A stretch of DNA of 31,668 bases from a virus. Under the pieces are notes generated by a model. That model was not told the DNA's origin, did not search any database, and saw nothing but the letters and a program-made list of their open reading frames with translations. Shown in pieces: positions 3,978 through 12,622 of this stretch; positions within the stretch are counted from its first letter, which is position 1, and each line of letters opens with the position of its first letter. The DNA is taken from the IMG/VR virus record IMGVR_UViG_3300025462_000002, positions 1 through 31,668 of that record. One strand, 5' to 3'. The translations under genes were made by a program, and so were the position numbers.

Positions 3978-4545
3978 TCCTCGCTGTGTAAAGCTTGAAA
4001 AACCTATTGAGAAAGCGGCTAAGCAAATTATATCACCAAAGTTTCCCTGGTGGTACAATGTGGCTCTCGCTCAACAAGAGTCTAATTGCAGATGGATTAC
4101 AAGTAGTGATGGGTGGGGTTCAATCGGTTATTTTCAATTAACACCTGCCGATGAAGATTGGTTAATCAGACCTTTATTTCCGCATTGGCAAGACCGTTGG
4201 AGCATGGACGCTTTTTATGGTTTTGCTTATGTGTTAAAAACCTTACTACATTCTACACCAGAGCATAAGCTTTGGATTGCCTATCAACGTTATAACGGCG
4301 GGAATTGGGTTATCTGGGAGTGTAAAGGTGCAGGTTCATATCAGTGGAAGGGTTGTTATGACTATTGTAAAGAGCACATCGGACAGCCAGGTCATCGGGG
4401 TTATGTTTGCGTGTGGAGAAGATGGGGAAGATGTGTAGAGTATAGAAGTGCTTGTGATATCAATTACCTTTACTCCCTTCATATTTTTGAATGGGGACAG
4501 CAGTATAAACCAATGTGTGCTGTTGATTATATAAGTTTTTGGTAA
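3916..4545 (+). CDS. Secreted lytic transglycosylase endolysin
   Basis: Cleaves peptidoglycan glycan strands for lysis. The start is placed at 3916, where GGAGAG precedes MIRFILLFFFCMSQLCSA, a signal peptide probably cut after Ala18; an upstream in-frame ATG at 3889 lacks a site and would bury the signal. The 209-aa protein shows SLT-type motifs: catalytic Glu55 in QQESNC, GSIGYFQLTP (69-77) and AYQRYNGG (122-129). Nine cysteines remain in the mature part (24, 58, 136, 147, 151, 165, 173, 180, 201), six of them clustered in 136-180, suggesting a disulphide-stabilised C-terminal insertion or wall-binding module. The gene overlaps the holin candidate by 62 bp. The SLT assignment is from motifs; the Cys-rich part is not recognised. 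Confidence 0.82.
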   Translation: MIRFILLFFFCMSQLCSAWVNPRCVKLEKPIEKAAKQIISPKFPWWYNVALAQQESNCRWITSSDGWGSIGYFQLTPADEDWLIRPLFPHWQDRWSMDAFYGFAYVLKTLLHSTPEHKLWIAYQRYNGGNWVIWECKGAGSYQWKGCYDYCKEHIGQPGHRGYVCVWRRWGRCVEYRSACDINYLYSLHIFEWGQQYKPMCAVDYISFW

Positions 4546-4566
4546 GATGATGAGCTGGTGTTTTTG

Positions 4567-4595
4567 TTGACAAAGTGTTGAAATGATGTTATCTT
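4567..4595 (+). promoter_or_regulatory. Sigma70-like promoter for the portal operon
   Basis: TTGACA at 4567-4572, a 17-bp spacer, and TATCTT at 4590-4595. Exactly six bases separate it from the portal ATG at 4602, and no Shine-Dalgarno sequence is present. This is the same geometry as at the dNMP-kinase gene, so the portal mRNA is predicted to be leaderless. Confidence 0.75.
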
Positions 4596-4601
4596 ATTAT
4601 T

Positions 4602-6443
4602 ATGGAATTTAATATCACTACAATAAATGGCGAGTATATAGTATCTAAAGAAGATTTAGAAGCTTTTGCAATCACTGTTTATTCCGAACTTCAAGCAGTA
4701 TCTCAATTAAAAAGAGATAAAGTTATGGAGTATGTGGCTGAGCTGAATGGCAACTCCATTGTTCCTGACCCTGATAATGCTTCTGGCAGTTGGCGAACAA
4801 ATCTTAAATCTTCTATTTTTTTTCAAAAAACAATTTTTGCCTATCTTTATCTTCGTGCCTTGTTGCAAAAATCTACAGATGCTTTACTGACATTTAAGAG
4901 CAATACTTATACTTATCTTCCATCTGCGTATAGAAAAATCTTCAATTTGGGTGTTTATAAAACTAAATTGTTTGACAAATTAGATAGAGCTTTGTGGTAT
5001 GGTATTTTGTCAGGCGAACTTACTTTATTGCTTGATGCTGATTATGTAGTGGATGAGTGGGACGATGTAGAGTTTGAAGTGATTGGCAAAGCTCTTAACC
5101 CCCTTAATTATTACAAATCTGCAGATGGGCAATTTTACGCTTATGATACATTTCAGCCAATAGAAGTAGTGAAAGGTTTGTCTACGCTTTGGAAAAATCC
5201 ACCAGAGAAGTTAGAGCCTTACAATCTTACTACAAACAAAGACATTACTGATTACCTAATCACTTCCATAAAAGACAAAGCCACTTACGGAAAGATTACC
5301 TATATTTTTGGAAGATATGTATCACCAAATTTTGATATAATATCATTACCGCTTAAATTAACGCTTTATAATGATAAATACCTTGTTGATGTAGAAACAA
5401 TAACGCATATTGACAAACGCCTTCCAATTATATCTGTGCCGTTTTATAGTGATGACATGCAATTATCTTATGTTGATTTAATATGGGATTATTACAAAGA
5501 AGATAGCAGATTTTTACGAGCTATCATAGATAGAGCCATTTTAGCCACTACGATGGGCTTTGAGATAAATGTATCCGCATTAGATAAAGAACAAGATGTA
5601 TTTACTGTTAAACCCTTTGCGGTGATAAGAACTGTATCAGATGAACCCGCTATTAAACCGTTCTCTATGGCTACGTTTGACCCAAATGTTTTACCTGTTA
5701 GACAGTTAATTGTGCAAGAAAGCCAAAATATCTCAGCTATTACTGAGTTTTTGATGGGGCTCCCTACCTCAAAAGGCAGACCAACGGCTAAGGAAGTTGC
5801 CATTAAAACGCAAATGAGTCAACAAATTATCTCTACCATTATAAACCGTATTGAAGACCAATTTATTAGCTCAGTAGCCAGAAAGTTATTGACTTTAATG
5901 TTCCAATACCATCTTTCAGAGATTTTAAACTCTTCATTATTGACTGAAACCGAGCTTAAAGAAATTAATGGAATTATTAATAAAGCGCTGCTGGAAGATA
6001 AAGAACCATATTATTATCTGGTTAAAGAACTTTATAAAGGAACAGAAATAAAGGTAGAAGGTATGAGTGGTGTTATTAAACAAAAAGATGAAGTAGAAAA
6101 CATCATGAATATGGTGGAGATGGCTACACAGTTAGGCTTAACCCCATTCTTAAACATGCCAGAAATTTTTAAGAAACTGTTTAAAGCCTTACAGCTTGAT
6201 AGCGATTTAGTAAGAATACCCCCACCAGAAGAGCTTAAGGCTATGGCTCAAGTGCAACAAGCTCAAACACAAATAGAGCCAGAAATTTACTCTTCTATTC
6301 TTCAACAAATGATGCAGTCTCCAGAGGTAATGGCTCATGTAGCTGGTAAGCCGCAAGCTTTAAGTCAGTATGTAGATATGTTAGCTCAAGCTAAGGCTCA
6401 ACAAATTATGCAACAGCAACAACAAGGAGCGGGAAATGATTGA
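4602..6443 (+). CDS. Portal (head-tail connector) protein
   Basis: The portal forms the dodecameric ring at one capsid vertex through which DNA is packaged and ejected. The 613-aa length fits podovirus portals. Recognisable portal character includes the segment around residues 375-430, ISAITEFLMGLPTSKG then PTAKEVAIKTQMSQQIIS, resembling the conserved xxTAxEV...(D/E) helix of T7-like connectors, followed by a long amphipathic helix. The C-terminus is very Gln-rich (last 60 residues), typical of the barrel/crown end. The first in-frame ATG lies directly at the predicted transcription start. The gene begins the packaging/structural operon and overlaps the next gene by 8 bp. Confidence in portal identity is good but rests on the overall pattern rather than one diagnostic motif. 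Confidence 0.75.
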   Translation: MEFNITTINGEYIVSKEDLEAFAITVYSELQAVSQLKRDKVMEYVAELNGNSIVPDPDNASGSWRTNLKSSIFFQKTIFAYLYLRALLQKSTDALLTFKSNTYTYLPSAYRKIFNLGVYKTKLFDKLDRALWYGILSGELTLLLDADYVVDEWDDVEFEVIGKALNPLNYYKSADGQFYAYDTFQPIEVVKGLSTLWKNPPEKLEPYNLTTNKDITDYLITSIKDKATYGKITYIFGRYVSPNFDIISLPLKLTLYNDKYLVDVETITHIDKRLPIISVPFYSDDMQLSYVDLIWDYYKEDSRFLRAIIDRAILATTMGFEINVSALDKEQDVFTVKPFAVIRTVSDEPAIKPFSMATFDPNVLPVRQLIVQESQNISAITEFLMGLPTSKGRPTAKEVAIKTQMSQQIISTIINRIEDQFISSVARKLLTLMFQYHLSEILNSSLLTETELKEINGIINKALLEDKEPYYYLVKELYKGTEIKVEGMSGVIKQKDEVENIMNMVEMATQLGLTPFLNMPEIFKKLFKALQLDSDLVRIPPPEELKAMAQVQQAQTQIEPEIYSSILQQMMQSPEVMAHVAGKPQALSQYVDMLAQAKAQQIMQQQQQGAGND

Positions 6444-6714
6444 TGCGTTATTGTTTGCAAACATTGTAGCATTGGTGATTAATAGCATCTTGCTTTTAGG
6501 TGTTATGGTTGAACTGCTTAATCTTAAAAAGCAAGTTGCTATTAAGTTTAAAGTGTTGATAGAGTTAGAAAAAAGTATAGACAAGCTTAATGAAGCAGTT
6601 AAAACAGTGATGAAAAGCCAGATAGAAAGATTAAAACCACAAGAAAAGCCAAAAGTAATTCCTTTCGTTACACAAGATTTGGAGAAACTTAAGGAGGGCT
6701 TAGATGCTTCTTGA
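6436..6714 (+). CDS. Small membrane-anchored coiled-coil protein
   Basis: This 92-aa protein has one strongly hydrophobic N-terminal segment (about residues 4-28, ending LLLGVMVELLNL) followed by a charged helical region with heptad-like spacing (about 30-65) and a basic, Pro-containing tail. It could be a minor virion or membrane protein; no family is recognised. AAGGAGCG lies just upstream of the ATG and both ends overlap neighbouring genes, so it is part of the portal operon. A similar design (one membrane segment plus a helix) recurs in the protein at 22656-22865. Confidence 0.6.
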   Translation: MIDALLFANIVALVINSILLLGVMVELLNLKKQVAIKFKVLIELEKSIDKLNEAVKTVMKSQIERLKPQEKPKVIPFVTQDLEKLKEGLDAS

Positions 6715-7138
6715 TGGTGAGTTTCTTTCATTACAAGAGGCATTTATAAATGAAGTAGATAAACCACGCTTTATAATGTATGACGGGCAAATCATAGGAA
6801 AGAAAATAAAAAATGAAGTGTTTTTTGACTATTGGAATAACGAAAATCTAACTAAACTTATTAAGTTTTATTTAAAAAAGTGTCATTCTGTCCCAATTGA
6901 AGATACATATAATCCAAATAGACAGGCTTTCGTGACTATCAAAGGTCAAAAAATTTACTTTTGTAATGACTTCGTAACATATAAAGGGCAAATCCACCCT
7001 ACATTATTTAGCAAGCAATACACTTCAGACTTTACAGATTTAAGTATTGCACATAATTTATTATTAGTTATGGAAGGTAAAAGAACTACTGAGTATTTAG
7101 ACCAAATTTATAGAGATATAGAGGAGCAATACAAATGA
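6704..7138 (+). CDS. Unknown protein preceding the ATP-grasp gene
   Basis: This 144-aa hypothetical has no recognisable motif. It has mixed alpha/beta character, with YDGQIIGKKI and VTIKGQKIYFC as likely beta hairpins, and an acidic helical C-terminus (TTEYLDQIYRDIEEQYK). It is translated from a strong AAGGAGGG site, overlaps the preceding gene by 11 bp and the ATP-grasp gene by 4 bp (ATGA). The tight coupling makes it a possible partner or substrate of the ATP-grasp enzyme, but that is inferred from position alone. Confidence 0.6.
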   Translation: MLLDGEFLSLQEAFINEVDKPRFIMYDGQIIGKKIKNEVFFDYWNNENLTKLIKFYLKKCHSVPIEDTYNPNRQAFVTIKGQKIYFCNDFVTYKGQIHPTLFSKQYTSDFTDLSIAHNLLLVMEGKRTTEYLDQIYRDIEEQYK

Positions 7139-8346
7139 ATAAAGCATTGGTAATAGGAACAGGAATAGAATTTAGCCATGTGCAAGCATTGGCAGAAAAA
7201 GGTGTGGAAGTATATTATTACACGGATTTTATATCTACGATGCCAACGTTTGACGATTTTTCAACAGGTATAGGATTTGAAAATATTAAAAAAGTGCATG
7301 ACCCATTCTTGTATATAGACAAAGTGGATATTATTTGTAATTTTGATGTGTTAAATGGTGATTTGTTTGATTTCTTAGCGAGAAAAGGTTATAAAGTGTT
7401 TGGTGGTGGTGTTGCCACAGATTTAGAATTAAATCGTAAGAATTTAAAAAATGCTTTAAAAGTTATAGGCATTCCTACACCACCTTATAAAGTTGTGAAA
7501 GGATACGATAATATACCTGTTCCCTCTGTTGTAAAATTGTCAATCTTTCGTGGCTCAATGGAAACTTTTATATTGAAAAATGAGACTCAAAAGAAAAATC
7601 TTAAAACGAAACTTCAATTGGAATTTGGAGCATTCTTAGATAGAATGGAGTTTATAGTTGAAGATATTTTAAGTTTAAGTAAAGATTGGGTAGAAACTGG
7701 AATTGATGCATTCTTTGATTGGCGAACAGGTGGGTTTATCTTTCCAATGCTGGTAGGGGTGGAGTATAAAAAAGGCGTTTATATTGGTAAAGTAGTTCAT
7801 TCATTAGCAGAAGTGCCTAAAGGACTGCAAGATACAATTATAAGATTAGGAGATTTATTAAACAAAACCAAATATAGAGGCATGCTTTCTACTGAAGAAT
7901 TTGTTAATCCTGAAACTGGTCAGCATTACTTTTTAGACTTAACAGTAAGAGGGGCATATCCTTTATCGCTTGGATATCGTTATGCTATAGAAAATTACAA
8001 AGATGTGATATTTAATAGCGATGCTCCTAAGTATAGAGGTAAGTATTATGTTAGTGTTCCATTTGTTGTTGAAGAAACTAAAAATATGTTTGTAAATATT
8101 AAGTTTCCTGATAAAGACAAGCGATTTAATTTTGAAAGCTTAATGAAAGTTGGTAGAGAATACTATATACCAAAGGCTGAAGCTCCAATGGAAGGTATAG
8201 TGTGTGAAGTGTTTGATAAATTAGATTTTACACAAATGAAAGGTGTAATGAGTAATCTAATTAATAAAATAGAAGCTTACTCGCTCAATGATGAATTAGA
8301 GCAGTTGGAGGACTGCTATAATGAATTTGTTAAAGCAATCGGATAG
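7135..8346 (+). CDS. ATP-grasp enzyme (PurD-like ligase fold)
   Basis: ATP-grasp enzymes couple ATP hydrolysis, through an acyl-phosphate, to the joining of a carboxylate to an amine or similar nucleophile. The 403-aa protein follows the GARS/PurD plan. It has an N-terminal Rossmann-like pre-ATP-grasp part (KALVIGTGIEFSHV), then FGGGVATDLELNRKNLKNAL with GIPTPPYKVV like the 'gsKafaK..m...gIPTa.Y' region, a VVKLS strand with Lys134 as the ATP lysine, EDI with Glu176, and a metal-binding end YRGMLSTEEFVN...FLDLTVRGAYP. There the usual E-x-N-x-R reads D268-L-T-V-R272. It lies inside the virion gene cluster with GAGGAG upstream of the ATG. A purine-synthesis role is unlikely in this setting; modification of a virion protein or of a small molecule is more plausible. 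The fold call is good, the substrate unknown. Confidence 0.75.
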   Translation: MNKALVIGTGIEFSHVQALAEKGVEVYYYTDFISTMPTFDDFSTGIGFENIKKVHDPFLYIDKVDIICNFDVLNGDLFDFLARKGYKVFGGGVATDLELNRKNLKNALKVIGIPTPPYKVVKGYDNIPVPSVVKLSIFRGSMETFILKNETQKKNLKTKLQLEFGAFLDRMEFIVEDILSLSKDWVETGIDAFFDWRTGGFIFPMLVGVEYKKGVYIGKVVHSLAEVPKGLQDTIIRLGDLLNKTKYRGMLSTEEFVNPETGQHYFLDLTVRGAYPLSLGYRYAIENYKDVIFNSDAPKYRGKYYVSVPFVVEETKNMFVNIKFPDKDKRFNFESLMKVGREYYIPKAEAPMEGIVCEVFDKLDFTQMKGVMSNLINKIEAYSLNDELEQLEDCYNEFVKAIG

Positions 8347-8713
8347 AAAAAACTTGTTAGATTTAATAGATGAATTTAAAAATATAGAATTTGACAGGGA
8401 TAAACTGTCTAAATATGCTAAAGGTAATCAAATACAATCATTAGCGATGGCTCAAGCTTTGGTTAGAGAAACATTGCTACAAATAGAGATTTTGTTAAAT
8501 GATGATACGCTCTATTCTAAAGTAAAAAATCCTGTTAGAACTAAAGGTGAGCTCATATCAACTAAGAAAGATTTAATCCAAACTTTAGTCCAAATAAGCA
8601 ATGCTTATGAAAAAGTAAAACCACCTGAAGAACAAGCTTCTAAACCTATAATACACATTGACATCAAAACGCAAAACGCTACTGTAGAGCTCCCTGTGGA
8701 GGATTTGGACTAA
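8321..8713 (+). CDS. Helical unknown protein in the packaging operon
   Basis: This 130-aa protein is predicted mostly helical through residue 95 (LLDLIDEFKNIEFDRDKLSKY, with many Leu/Ile/Lys), then has a short beta-like acidic end (IIHIDIKTQNATVELPVEDLD). It starts from a GGAGG site inside the end of the ATP-grasp gene (26-bp overlap). Its size, oligomer-type helices and location upstream of the large terminase make a small terminase subunit conceivable. I see no clear helix-turn-helix, however, so it is left as unknown. Confidence 0.55.
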   Translation: MNLLKQSDRKNLLDLIDEFKNIEFDRDKLSKYAKGNQIQSLAMAQALVRETLLQIEILLNDDTLYSKVKNPVRTKGELISTKKDLIQTLVQISNAYEKVKPPEEQASKPIIHIDIKTQNATVELPVEDLD

Positions 8714-9429
8714 TGAATGTCAATACAATTATAACAGCTCAATCGTTTATAAATTATGTAGAAAGTGCTAATAAATGCGATAATACGGCATGGGCTTATA
8801 AGTTTAATAATTCTTGGAATGAGTGTTGGTATTGGGGCGGTTATAATGTAGTAAGTAATGTAGCTAAAAATTATGTTTTTGATATCAATTATTTATCAGC
8901 GGCCACAAAGTTAAGTTTTCCTATTCCTGTTAAGAGTTATCAACCACAACTCTTTAGCTCTTATATCGCTAATAGTACTGTTCGTCCAGTTAATAATACA
9001 CAAGGTTACATTGTAGGGCAAAAATTTACTGTTGCTAACTCTTTAACAAACGCTGTATTAACTTTTATTGCTGACTCAAATATTAAACTTTCTATACCCT
9101 ATGCAGTTTCTTATTACGGACAAACTTGGATTGGTAATTTAGGTAAAGCAATTATAAAACTTGTGCCAATTGTAAATGCTAACAGGTATATAAGCAAAAC
9201 TTATAAAGCTATAATTAAGTTTTATACTTCGCAAGCTACAATAAATAGAACGGTGTTACCTGTAATTAAAGCTGTATTTAAAGGTAATTCAACTGTGTTT
9301 GCAGATAGATATTTAATTTGCACTGCTAAAATGATTAGTAAAGGCAGTATTTATATCCAACCTAATTGTAGCGTTTCGTGGTGGATTAGGAAGATGTATA
9401 CATGGGAGGATTGTCAAACTTGGAGCTAA
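8713..9429 (+). CDS. Beta-rich virion protein
   Basis: This 238-aa protein is rich in Asn, Tyr, Ser and Ile, with a Trp-rich, Cys-containing N-terminus (WNECWYWGGYNV, with another Cys at residue 22) and a matching aromatic/Cys C-terminus (YTWEDCQTWS). The composition is that of a virion surface or tail component with little catalytic potential. The start overlaps the previous stop (TAATG) after GTGGAGG. No known family is recognised. The two related WxxC patches at either end might pair or contact a neighbour. Confidence 0.5.
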   Translation: MNVNTIITAQSFINYVESANKCDNTAWAYKFNNSWNECWYWGGYNVVSNVAKNYVFDINYLSAATKLSFPIPVKSYQPQLFSSYIANSTVRPVNNTQGYIVGQKFTVANSLTNAVLTFIADSNIKLSIPYAVSYYGQTWIGNLGKAIIKLVPIVNANRYISKTYKAIIKFYTSQATINRTVLPVIKAVFKGNSTVFADRYLICTAKMISKGSIYIQPNCSVSWWIRKMYTWEDCQTWS

Positions 9430-10625
9430 ACCTTTTAAAAACCCCTTTACCTTATATAAGTGGTGATTTTGTAGAACTTAATGAGAGTGCTAATATAATT
9501 TTTCCACAAGTTTTAAACTCTACTACAGCTGTTTATTCCTTAAACGGCGTAAGTTTTTATGATGGATATGAGATAAATAATAAGATTTATTACGCATATA
9601 ACCAATCAGGTACAGACCAAGTTTTATATTCATTAAGCACTGTTTATCAAACACCAAACTTTGCTGGTTTTTGTGTTTTTGGCACTAATTACTTTACTTT
9701 TTATAATAGCAATTCGTGTTTAGTAATTAACACAACTAATAATGCCTCAAATACTGTTTCTATTCAAATAGATGGTGCTACTCAAAACATTGTAAAAGCT
9801 TATCAAATTACACCGCAATTATTCGCATTAGTGACTACCAATCCTACAACTGTTTATATTATGGGTTTAGACAGTGTAGGAGCTATAGCCAATGCCAGTC
9901 CGAGCTCTACAGTTTCTTTAACTGCTTATTCTTATGCTACATTTTCTAATCCAACGGTTAAGATAGATTTAGTAAATGTAAATAATCTTAAATTTACATT
10001 AGAGTATGGTTATCCTCCGATTAATGTTTTATATCTCATAGGCGATGATTATACAGTGGTGTTAAAGCTTGATATTAGAGACTTAATTTATTTGCAAACC
10101 GTAGAAAGTTTCAACTACCGCTTTACACCATTCCAACAATACGAAAAAGCTGGTTTAAAATTTATGAGAGAAACACACTCTTTTTATGTGTTTTATAACA
10201 CACTTTGGAGTAGTTTTGTCTATATTACAAAAGATTTTAAAAATATGTATTTAGGCGAGAATACGATTTATATAACTCCAAATTTGTGTTTAAATATTAC
10301 TAACAATACATTTTATCAATTTACAGACATTTTACAAAACGATACAATAGTTATACCTTCTATGCATAATATTTCTTTCAGAGTTGATACACCGCTTACT
10401 CTATTATCGCAATTGTTTATAGACATTCCAGAAACTCAAATTGGTAACTCTTCAACAATAGCCACATTCAATATTGAGACACGATATCAAAATCAGTATA
10501 ATAATTTTAGCTATAATATACTTTACAACTATCCTACATATAGACTTGGCGTTAGAGGAAGTAGTTTTGTTTTAGGCTTGAGCTCTTCATTAGGCATGAG
10601 AATAACTAATATGGTGCTATCATGA
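9402..10625 (+). CDS. Beta-rich tail or fibre protein
   Basis: This 407-aa protein is dominated by Asn/Thr/Ser/Tyr and predicted beta strands, with many short repeats of the form 'ITPNLCLNITNN' and 'NNTFYQFTD', as in tail tube/nozzle or fibre proteins. The ATG at 9402 has a weak AGGA site; an in-frame TTG at 9420 has GGAGG about 10 nt upstream and is a plausible alternative that would remove six residues. It overlaps the preceding structural gene and ends in an ATGA overlap with the next small gene. Its position between portal and terminase suggests a tail-stem component, but no family is recognised. Confidence 0.5.
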   Translation: MGGLSNLELNLLKTPLPYISGDFVELNESANIIFPQVLNSTTAVYSLNGVSFYDGYEINNKIYYAYNQSGTDQVLYSLSTVYQTPNFAGFCVFGTNYFTFYNSNSCLVINTTNNASNTVSIQIDGATQNIVKAYQITPQLFALVTTNPTTVYIMGLDSVGAIANASPSSTVSLTAYSYATFSNPTVKIDLVNVNNLKFTLEYGYPPINVLYLIGDDYTVVLKLDIRDLIYLQTVESFNYRFTPFQQYEKAGLKFMRETHSFYVFYNTLWSSFVYITKDFKNMYLGENTIYITPNLCLNITNNTFYQFTDILQNDTIVIPSMHNISFRVDTPLTLLSQLFIDIPETQIGNSSTIATFNIETRYQNQYNNFSYNILYNYPTYRLGVRGSSFVLGLSSSLGMRITNMVLS

Positions 10626-10822
10626 TAAAGATTATAAAAGGCGGACAAGGTAAAAAAGCAGTTGTTAATCAAGGTGTAGTGCTTTCTATAAGCTCTACAA
10701 ACTCTGTTTCTGGAACAGTAATTAATTCTCAAACAGAGCTTGACTTGTCTAATGTTTTGTGTATAATTGTATTAACGGAGGTAAATGATTATGTCAACAA
10801 CTTTGACACAAGGGTTCGCTAA
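10622..10822 (+). CDS. Small hypothetical protein
   Basis: This 66-aa product begins MIKIIKGGQGKKAVVNQG and then has a beta-type stretch (VVLSISSTNSVSGTVIN). It starts in an ATGA overlap with the previous stop and has no clear ribosome-binding site, so translation would depend on coupling. Its last third overlaps the next gene by 32 bp. It has no recognised family. It could be a minor structural protein; a non-coding explanation is less likely because the frame is maintained between two coupled genes. Confidence 0.45.
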   Translation: MIKIIKGGQGKKAVVNQGVVLSISSTNSVSGTVINSQTELDLSNVLCIIVLTEVNDYVNNFDTRVR

Positions 10823-11162
10823 TTTAATAGCCCCAAGTTTTACAGCGTGTCAAGTAGCTTTAATAATGCAAAACGGGACAGAGTGTAGCGGTGGGGGATA
10901 TGTCAGGCAAACTTTCGGAAATGTAAGCACTTCATCAGATACGGCTAACGCTTATATATCAAACGATTCACAGATAATTTATTCACAGGCTACGGCTGAT
11001 ATAGCTTCTATGACTAATCCAGTAGCGTTTGTTTCGTTGTATAATTCTTCTACACTGATTGCGACTGTGGCATTACCAGAAGCAAAGCCGTATTTAAATG
11101 GAGACCAATTTATTATTCCAATTGGTGGTTTAACAATAGCTATTCCATTAAGCGTATCTTAA
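10791..11162 (+). CDS. Small phage structural protein of the 'GGGYxRQ' type
   Basis: The start is set at 10791 because GGAGGT lies 8 nt upstream; an ATG six bases earlier is too close to that site. The 123-aa protein has the layout of a common small phage virion protein: an early 'ALIMQNGTE' beta hairpin, SGGGYVRQTFG, a central DIASMTNPVAFVSLYNSS block (like 'dWgtvthfglfda'), and the closing YLNGDQFIIPIGGLTIAI (like 'v..GDtf.ipaGaltit'). These proteins occur in tail/fibre regions of many phages, probably as decoration or tip components. The pattern match is by eye. Confidence 0.6.
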   Translation: MSTTLTQGFANLIAPSFTACQVALIMQNGTECSGGGYVRQTFGNVSTSSDTANAYISNDSQIIYSQATADIASMTNPVAFVSLYNSSTLIATVALPEAKPYLNGDQFIIPIGGLTIAIPLSVS

Positions 11163-11170
11163 GGTGATGC

Positions 11171-12622
11171 ATGGGAATAATATTAACTGACAAACAAGCG
11201 GAGATTTATAATTCTTTCTTTTATGATGATAATGTAAGGTGGGTATTATCCGTAGGTGGTAAAGGTTCGGCTAAAACTACGGTTTCGGTAGTTATTTTAT
11301 TAACGCTATTTTTTGATGAGAAGTATAAAAATTCTAAAATTCTAATTGCTCGTGAAAGTTTAAGAGACTTAAAAAACACACTTGTATCAGAGTTTAAAAA
11401 ACGGTGTGCTGAGATTGGAGCACATGAAGATGAAGTATTTAAGGTAAAAGATGACTTGCAGTATATAGAAAATCTTATAACAGGCACTAAAATTTATTAT
11501 TTGTCGCTATCTGATAAAAATCAGCAATACCGCTCAGTTTTGTCATATGAGTTTAATGTGGTTATAATAGATGAGTTAGACCGTATTAGCGAAGAAGCAT
11601 TTGACGAAGTTAGTCAAAGAATGAGATTAGTGCATAAATTTAATAAAGGCTTGCTTAACCTTAACCCAGTGCCAGAGACACATTGGATATATAGGAAGTT
11701 TATAAAAGATGGCTATCCACAAACTAAAATTGTCAAATCATCTTCCTATGACAATTTTATCAAAGTTAAACTTCCAAGCAGGCAGTTTAAAGAAAAAGCT
11801 CAGCCGTATTATTATGATGAAAAAGAGTATTTTGTCATAGACAATATCCGCTACGAAATTGTTGGAAAAGATGGTGATTTTTATGTAGCTAAACGCTACA
11901 ATTTGGCTCATTCCTTCTATGTAGAAATGGAGCATCGCAATTACGCTTTTAAACGGGTTATGCTTCTTGGAGAATGGGGAAGTGCGTATATTGACGATGG
12001 GCTTTACACCTCTACATTTACAGAAGATAATGTGTTTAAAAGCGTAATATTGCCGAAAGATTTACAGTTTCAATACCGTGTGTATGGAGGCGTAGATTTT
12101 GGTTTTAGAAGACCTGCATTTGTTTTAATAGCTGAAGATGAATGGGGGCGGTATATTGTCATTGATGAATTGCTTGGCGAAAACATATCTTCAGTCCAGT
12201 TTATAGATTATCTTCGCAAACGCTTAAGAGAAAAATGGAAGCTTGATGCATTGGAGATAGAATGGTATGGAGATATTGCAGGAAGGCAAAAATCTCAAAG
12301 CGATGGTGTATCAATTATTAATAGGATTAGGCAAGATTACAACATTGATATTAAAACAAATAAAGTGCCGATTATGGATAGTGTAGGGCTAATTAGAGAA
12401 TTGTTAGAAACAGATGTGAGAGGGCAAAAAGCATTGCAAGTGTCTCCAGAAGCTCCTATCACAATGGCAGGCTTTCTTGGAGAGTTTAAAATGGACGATT
12501 TAGGCAAGCCTATAAAAGATGGTTATTATGACCACATTCATGATGCCCTGCGTTATGTATTGTGGGGTGTGGCAAAAGGTAGAAGGTTTAGCAAGTTTAA
12601 AGTAGTAGCTCCTGAATGTTGA
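11171..12622 (+). CDS. terL: Terminase large subunit
   Basis: The ATP-driven motor and nuclease that cuts and packages phage DNA through the portal. The 483-aa protein shows the full plan: Walker A GGKGSAKTT (residues 29-37), Walker B VVIIDE (130-135), the coupling-type motif NLNPVPE (163-169), and a C-terminal RNase H-like nuclease with acidic residues in GGVDFG (Asp309), WYGDIAG (Asp368) and DHIHDALRY (454-462). It is translated from AAGGTGA 5 nt before the ATG. Unusually for a podovirus, it sits after several structural genes and directly before the scaffold/capsid pair. No small-subunit gene is recognisable beside it. Confidence 0.92.
   Translation: MGIILTDKQAEIYNSFFYDDNVRWVLSVGGKGSAKTTVSVVILLTLFFDEKYKNSKILIARESLRDLKNTLVSEFKKRCAEIGAHEDEVFKVKDDLQYIENLITGTKIYYLSLSDKNQQYRSVLSYEFNVVIIDELDRISEEAFDEVSQRMRLVHKFNKGLLNLNPVPETHWIYRKFIKDGYPQTKIVKSSSYDNFIKVKLPSRQFKEKAQPYYYDEKEYFVIDNIRYEIVGKDGDFYVAKRYNLAHSFYVEMEHRNYAFKRVMLLGEWGSAYIDDGLYTSTFTEDNVFKSVILPKDLQFQYRVYGGVDFGFRRPAFVLIAEDEWGRYIVIDELLGENISSVQFIDYLRKRLREKWKLDALEIEWYGDIAGRQKSQSDGVSIINRIRQDYNIDIKTNKVPIMDSVGLIRELLETDVRGQKALQVSPEAPITMAGFLGEFKMDDLGKPIKDGYYDHIHDALRYVLWGVAKGRRFSKFKVVAPEC

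Follow-up and report, generated by a model that had tools for sequence, protein, structure and literature searches.

A putative accessory ATP-grasp ligase encoded in the virion operon of a 'Pyrovirus'-like virus

What might a virus gain from carrying its own ATP-grasp ligase in the middle of the genes for its particle? The question is raised by IMG/VR virus record IMGVR_UViG_3300025462_000002, of which a stretch of 31,668 nucleotides was analysed here (the whole of this stretch is called the window). Between its portal and terminase genes lies an open reading frame (ORF) for a 403-amino-acid (aa) protein, overlapping a 144-aa ORF before it and a 130-aa ORF after it, all three in the same direction. 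The initial annotation had described the central gene as a PurD-like ATP-grasp enzyme with two tightly coupled partners, and the coordinates, strand and frames of the three ORFs were as claimed; the overlaps measure 4 and 26 bases. The genes are listed below; sequences compared with the window carry L numbers, and dN/dS is the ratio of nonsynonymous to synonymous substitution rates.

7135..8346, plus strand: ATP-grasp enzyme, 403 aa (AlphaFold2 model with an ATP-grasp fold; 15 full-length IMG/VR relatives; dN/dS 0.044 against L001)
6704..7138, plus strand: 144-aa gene directly upstream, 4-base overlap (kept in all loci covering it, including two without the enzyme)
8321..8713, plus strand: 130-aa gene downstream, 26-base overlap (kept in L025 and L038, without the enzyme)

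We modelled the 403-aa enzyme with AlphaFold2 from an alignment of 11 sequences (predicted local distance difference test [pLDDT] score, 67; predicted template modeling [pTM] score, 0.63). A Foldseek search of the PDB returned PurD (3lp8) as the best match (E 2.7e-14). VIA Z scores were 15.7 for RizA (4wd3), 15.3 for Aquifex PurD 2yw2 (A. aeolicus) and ~14 for PurT and PurK, and they exceeded 13 for many ATP-grasp enzymes over residues 1 to 400, so that in this model of pLDDT 67 an ATP-grasp fold with its pre-ATP-grasp domain was found. The PurD-like ATP-grasp reading was thereby confirmed by the predicted fold. A structure search for the closest subfamily, which the initial annotation had proposed, delivered the fold but left RizA and PurD tied: the superposition on RizA had a root mean square deviation of 5.2 across 314 residues, and its Z score was tied with that of PurD. 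Because Z differences of <1 were counted as ties, the subfamily is not fixed by the structure match. A viral structure library gave partial, weak matches only for the enzyme model.

Profile libraries were far less responsive. No Pfam ATP-grasp family matched any of 14 members of the viral family at E values up to 1, and so there was no match to an L-amino-acid ligase (LAL) family (ATP-grasp_4 or other); PHROGs gave no significant match for the enzyme sequence. The sole near family was NCBIfam purD, with weak matches in 7 of the 14 members (best E 0.0026). When the family profile was aligned with profiles from the host phylum by using hhalign, the probabilities were 79 to 87% for D-Ala-D-Ala ligase, 68 to 73% for PurK and 39 to 44% for PurD, and five viral structural proteins used as controls scored 0.1 to 2.3%; hhalign also missed the true ATP-grasp families biotin carboxylase and SucC (near zero), and its power is limited accordingly. 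The 7135-8346 gene is thus predicted to encode an ATP-grasp superfamily enzyme missed by curated profiles, and it represents a new family within an established type of enzyme.

Orthology to PurD was rejected. GARS_A found no match in the window. The same search did give matches for 13 of 14 control genomes, and its cut-off for PurD was exceeded by 15 of the 16 genomes from the host family, so these have a PurD of their own. The catalytic end of PurD is also absent: host PurD sequences carry the canonical E-[FY]-N-x-R-[LF]-G-D-P-E, whereas in the viral enzyme D-[LI]-[TC]-x-R comes before Y-P-L. PurD orthology and the lack of an ATP-binding fold were the two outcomes that the initial annotation had named as fatal to its reading; both were tested, and neither occurred.

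The family alignments contain a set of invariant residues (R101, K134, E176, E254/E255, D268 and R272) at the places expected for an ATP-grasp active site. Together they would provide the Lys/Arg, the hinge Glu, both acidic metal ligands and the catalytic Arg that characterise the superfamily; these roles were assigned through motif spacing and hhalign pairing with D-Ala-D-Ala ligase. R101 we take to be the ATP-contacting linker residue, from motif spacing relative to biotin carboxylase.

7435..7437, plus strand: codon of R101, proposed counterpart of the ATP-contacting linker Lys/Arg (invariant in the alignments)
7534..7554, plus strand: K134-LSIFR-G140, putative core lysine strand and short loop (K134, R139 and G140 invariant; paired by hhalign with the D-Ala-D-Ala ligase lysine strand)
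7660..7662, plus strand: codon of E176, expected to serve as the acidic hinge residue of the adenine site (invariant)
7894..7899, plus strand: E254-E255 (in S-T-E-E-F), expected first metal-ligand strand (invariant; paired by hhalign with the matching D-Ala-D-Ala ligase strand)
7936..7950, plus strand: D268-L-T270-V-R272, putative catalytic end, equivalent to E-x-N-x-R (D and R invariant)

The last of these is the D-L-T-x-R end to which the initial annotation had drawn attention, present as D-L-T-V-R. Fourteen members carry D-[LI]-T-x-R and L040 carries D-I-C-I-R, with Thr or Cys in place of the usual last-strand Asn. L040 (gene at 4148-5323) is the most divergent member and also lacks the otherwise constant N-terminal F-S-H. 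The altered end had been taken as a sign of a new metal site or substrate, an interpretation not supported by comparison with cellular genes: chromosomal Aquificota ATP-grasp genes have D-I-T-R-R, D-V-S-R-R, E-L-T-R-R and E-I-T-R-R at the same place. Since Thr or Ser stands there in cellular ATP-grasp genes that Pfam recognises, Asn does not define the superfamily. The Aquificota gene with D-I-T-R-R, the only such gene whose neighbours were read, adjoins a gene for NeuB (nonulosonate synthase; E 9e-95) in a chromosomal cluster (L068, 41-3154), an adjacency that suggests surface-sugar work for the cellular gene. This NeuB-linked family has only 5 clear members among 136 Aquificota genomes (E <1e-60).

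How widely is the viral gene distributed? Besides the window, IMG/VR holds 15 full-length relatives (L002 and L040 counted) and a fragment in L015, and further IMG/VR profile scans for distant viral relatives returned the same group only. No phage relative of the enzyme was found in INPHARED and no match in genome_contigs; weak tblastn matches in Vibrio phage Aphrodite1 and in Synechococcus phages were dropped because they fall in unrelated structural genes. In the 136 Aquificota genomes there was no convincing copy (best E 0.001, over ~110 residues), and a host source or a provirus was not supported.

In every relative with the enzyme gene, it directly follows the homologue of the 144-aa gene at 6704 and, where this is detectable, precedes the homologue of the 130-aa gene at 8321. 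The block is syntenic in every relative holding the full gene, far beyond chance. The sequence itself is under strong purifying selection: between the window and L001, dN/dS was 0.044 for the enzyme, compared with 0.054 for both the capsid and the portal and 0.029 for the terminase. Between the window and L005 of the far clade (clade II), identity was 59% for the enzyme, 52% for the terminase, 45% for the portal, 44% for the capsid and 36% for the 144-aa gene. The corresponding values for L040, which rank the four proteins in the same way, were 56% (enzyme), 51% (terminase), 48% (portal) and 47% (capsid). The enzyme tree splits into the two clades also seen for terminase and portal, although several of its forks are unresolved, and this agreement fits vertical descent.

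The most informative relatives are two that lack the gene. A scan with a terminase profile found two contigs, L025 (3300003707) and L038 (3300005962), in which the portal gene, 144-aa gene, 130-aa gene, fibre genes and terminase gene follow in order and only the enzyme ORF is missing, the 144-aa gene passing directly into the 130-aa gene at a junction where the two overlap by ATGA. The contigs, from different metagenomes, have this junction in common and 97.7% identity over 7.9 kb, so misassembly was judged an unlikely cause of the gap. The enzyme gene was not found elsewhere in L025 or L038, although these records, of 19 and 8 kb, are incomplete. Both group with the enzyme-bearing L009 in the portal tree (support 98/96), inside the enzyme-bearing clade, so that the gap is most simply read as a derived loss. 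Related viruses have a similar ribosome-binding stretch, GGAG...ATGA, ahead of the enzyme gene and of the next gene alike, and recombination between these short repeats could excise exactly this ORF.

The enzyme is therefore dispensable, and the 144-aa and 130-aa proteins are not its obligate partners; since L025 and L038 retain both neighbours without it, the idea of a three-gene system is refuted. What remains of the claimed tight coupling is the overlaps and the synteny, both of which are real. The position between portal and terminase was likewise correct, but eight ORFs span that interval, and genes overlap at all eight junctions from the portal gene through the gene preceding the terminase gene. 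Overlap is habitual in this genome and, as a consequence, no sign of a special partnership. The check proposed in the initial annotation, whether the three-gene block is conserved next to portal genes in other phages, came out positive for the relatives holding the full gene, but not for the two contigs without the enzyme. That the enzyme might perform a step needed for making virions is not supported, given its clean loss with the surrounding late genes kept.

Our preferred, still tentative interpretation is that the gene encodes an active, soluble accessory carboxylate-amine ligase of the PurD/D-Ala-D-Ala-ligase/L-amino-acid-ligase type, made late from the virion operon of 'Pyrovirus'-like viruses that infect Aquificota and acting on small host substrates. 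The enzyme would be expressed with the virion genes, hold MgATP in its cleft and activate a carboxylate substrate as an acyl phosphate, from which an amine would displace the phosphate to form an amide. Both substrates would most likely be small host molecules, such as amino acids, amino sugars or envelope precursors, in which case the product would change the infected cell, or the surface of that cell, at a late stage and would not serve to mature a virion protein. A small host substrate is favoured because the enzyme is more conserved than the virion proteins, because its nearest structural matches are mostly small-molecule enzymes and because its loss leaves the late neighbours in place. 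Identity above that of terminase, portal and capsid is what would be expected for a fixed substrate and not for a fast-evolving virion partner. The conserved catalytic residues, low dN/dS and high identity fit an active accessory ligase, one that is probably useful but not essential and is no essential part of the particle.

Several points weigh against this interpretation. The model is only moderately confident (pLDDT 67, pTM 0.63), and its subfamily ranks lie within noise. The late-operon position would equally fit the modification of a virion protein, and a higher identity than that of virion proteins does not alone rule out a protein substrate. The profile match between the viral and NeuB-linked families is weak (probability 1.9%), so the motif that they have in common may reflect convergence; it is evidence that such a variant is tolerated, but not of orthology.

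If the ligase did act on the particle, it might modify a structural or fibre protein of the same operon by attaching an amino acid or a peptide, for example at the acidic C terminus of the 130-aa protein or on the adjacent fibres, much as RimK acts on S6. The fixed place in the late operon, upstream of variable fibre genes, speaks for this, as does the tail of the 130-aa protein, which reads EEE, EVEE, VEDLD or NDE (the last in L040) in enzyme-bearing viruses and VKD in L025 and L038, which lack the enzyme. That difference, however, amounts to one or two residues in a single lineage and may mean nothing, and a comparison of late-protein C termini with and without the enzyme gave no clear substrate candidate. 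L025 and L038 moreover keep portal, neighbours, fibres and terminase without it, and the nearest structural matches act mostly on small molecules. We regard virion-protein modification as rather unlikely. Less probable still is an auxiliary metabolic gene of PurD, PurK or PurT type that boosts the supply of nucleotides or amino acids. All three enzymes are among the best structural matches, and NCBIfam purD was the most repeated weak match, but a host already equipped with PurD leaves little to gain, neither a GARS_A match nor the E-F/Y-N-x-R-L-G-D-P-E end of PurD is present, and none of the 136 Aquificota genomes holds a convincing copy.

There is precedent for phage ATP-grasp genes with a proposed role at the envelope in the Iyer-type modules of phiEco32, LUZ24 and phiM6, which combine ATP-grasp, amidoligase and GATase genes; alteration of host peptidoglycan or exclusion of other phages has been suggested as their function. 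The viral gene would then be such a module reduced to a single gene, which we consider improbable: no amidoligase, GATase or GGCT partner was recognised in Pfam scans of most window genes, PF12224 was not found in 11 records by a search that had no working positive control, the enzyme has no detectable similarity to any phage record, and it sits in a late operon whereas the UFV-P2 module is early. Least probable of all would be a catalytically dead ATP-grasp scaffold kept for a structural or regulatory role. Replacement of the last-strand Asn by Thr or Cys and a short, glycine-poor loop after K134 could be read in that way, but no variation is seen at any other residue expected to bind ATP or metal, dN/dS is low, and the host phylum has chromosomal ATP-grasp genes with N-to-T/S and E-to-D changes as well. 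A bolder proposal, doubtful but worth stating, is that this ATP-grasp family is confined to viruses and that, late in infection of Aquificota, its members couple an amino acid or a peptide to a virion protein, a receptor-binding protein or a glycan on the host surface; the natural loss mutants would then show the purpose of the modification.

Which virus carries the gene? Palmer 2020 proposed 'Pyrovirus' as a genus of Aquificota viruses (TOSV/OS3173; PMC7689252), in which DUF927 may be fused to PolA or separate from it. The 'Pyrovirus' gene set is seen in the window, with PolA, a DUF927 protein, a PD-(D/E)XK nuclease and an SNF2-type helicase encoded in a minus-strand block, together with portal, terminase and capsid genes whose order (portal, then terminase, then capsid) agrees with the description in PMC7689252. 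By its gene content and order, the window virus appears to be a member of, or adjacent to, this proposed genus. A partial ribonucleotide reductase small-subunit gene at the left window end (30-584) is 69 to 71% identical to copies in Hydrogenobaculum and Aquificaceae genomes and therefore also points to an Aquificota host. In OS3173, the portal is ORF16, the terminase subunits are ORFs 24 and 25, and the capsid is ORF27 (PMC7689252); by ORF counting, the ATP-grasp gene would be the counterpart of ORF19. The words "grasp" and "ligase" are absent from the main text of PMC7689252, in which an ATP-grasp enzyme goes unmentioned. The flanking genes in the window are as follows.

4602..6443, plus strand: portal protein (PF23899, E 3.8e-9; phrog_332 head-tail adaptor, E 5e-11)
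6436..6714, plus strand: small 92-aa gene with a hydrophobic N-terminal stretch, first of the conserved block (from the alignment and family collection)
8713..10625, plus strand: two variable genes, probably for fibre/adhesin proteins (size and sequence differ among relatives)
11171..12622, plus strand: terminase large subunit (PF04466, E 2e-18)

PHROG scans of the 144-aa and 130-aa proteins gave chance-level matches only, and the model of the 144-aa protein had no PDB fold match despite a pLDDT of 80. In the alignment, the 130-aa protein has a mostly charged N-terminal part, an invariant K-N-P-x-R-T, an I-x-I-x-I-x-T stretch and an acidic tail, and by general resemblance it could be a candidate small terminase subunit. 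The first variable gene downstream (8713-9429) and its relatives encode proteins of 217 to 499 aa with repeated tryptophan-rich motifs, such as W-x-x-V-x-T-W-x-D-F-Y, and probably specify a fibre or adhesin. The gene just before the terminase gene (10785-11162) matches PF23140 (GP4 fibre protein gp80, E 3.2e-10) and the phrog_240 head protein (E 1e-5). It corresponds by position to OS3173 ORF24, the small terminase subunit inferred in PMC7689252 from place and length, a label that may be wrong given these fibre and head matches.

The gene adds an enzyme family missed by standard profile libraries to the little-known, uncultured viruses of hot springs. It is the most conserved of the late genes compared across the two clades and yet is absent from one lineage, a natural with/without pair in which the benefit of an amide ligase to a phage could be examined. 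An ATP-grasp ligase from a thermophilic system may find practical use as well, and modification of the virion or of host surface sugars would, if true, be a new step in phage biology.

Set beside known systems, the viral enzyme resembles several cellular ligases without coinciding with any. The L-amino-acid ligases RizA (4wd3) and B. licheniformis LAL (3vot) have the full-length fold in common with it (Z 15.7 and 13.4), but identity is 12 to 13%, and the viral enzyme has no significant Pfam or NCBIfam match and ends in D-[LI]-[TC]-x-R. PurD (3lp8; A. aeolicus 2yw2), the top Foldseek match, has a similar N-terminal strand and F-G-G/P...L-E linker, but the viral sequence scores under any PurD cut-off and lacks the PurD catalytic end. 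D-Ala-D-Ala ligase (Aquificota profile) gave the top profile-profile score among the families compared, but is ~100 residues shorter, has an E-x-N end and differs in its C-terminal part. L084, which adjoins NeuB, and other Aquificota ATP-grasp genes show the same end-motif variation, but there the motif is followed by I-P-G-D, and in the viral enzyme by x-x-Y-P-L. The modules of UFV-P2/LUZ24, phiM6 and phiEco32 are like the window in placing an ATP-grasp gene, with proposed amide-bond chemistry, in a tailed-phage genome, although the UFV-P2 gene encodes 291 aa within an early multi-gene module and the window has a single 403-aa gene in a late operon. These phage amidoligase/ATP-grasp modules are the nearest functional precedent for the enzyme described here.

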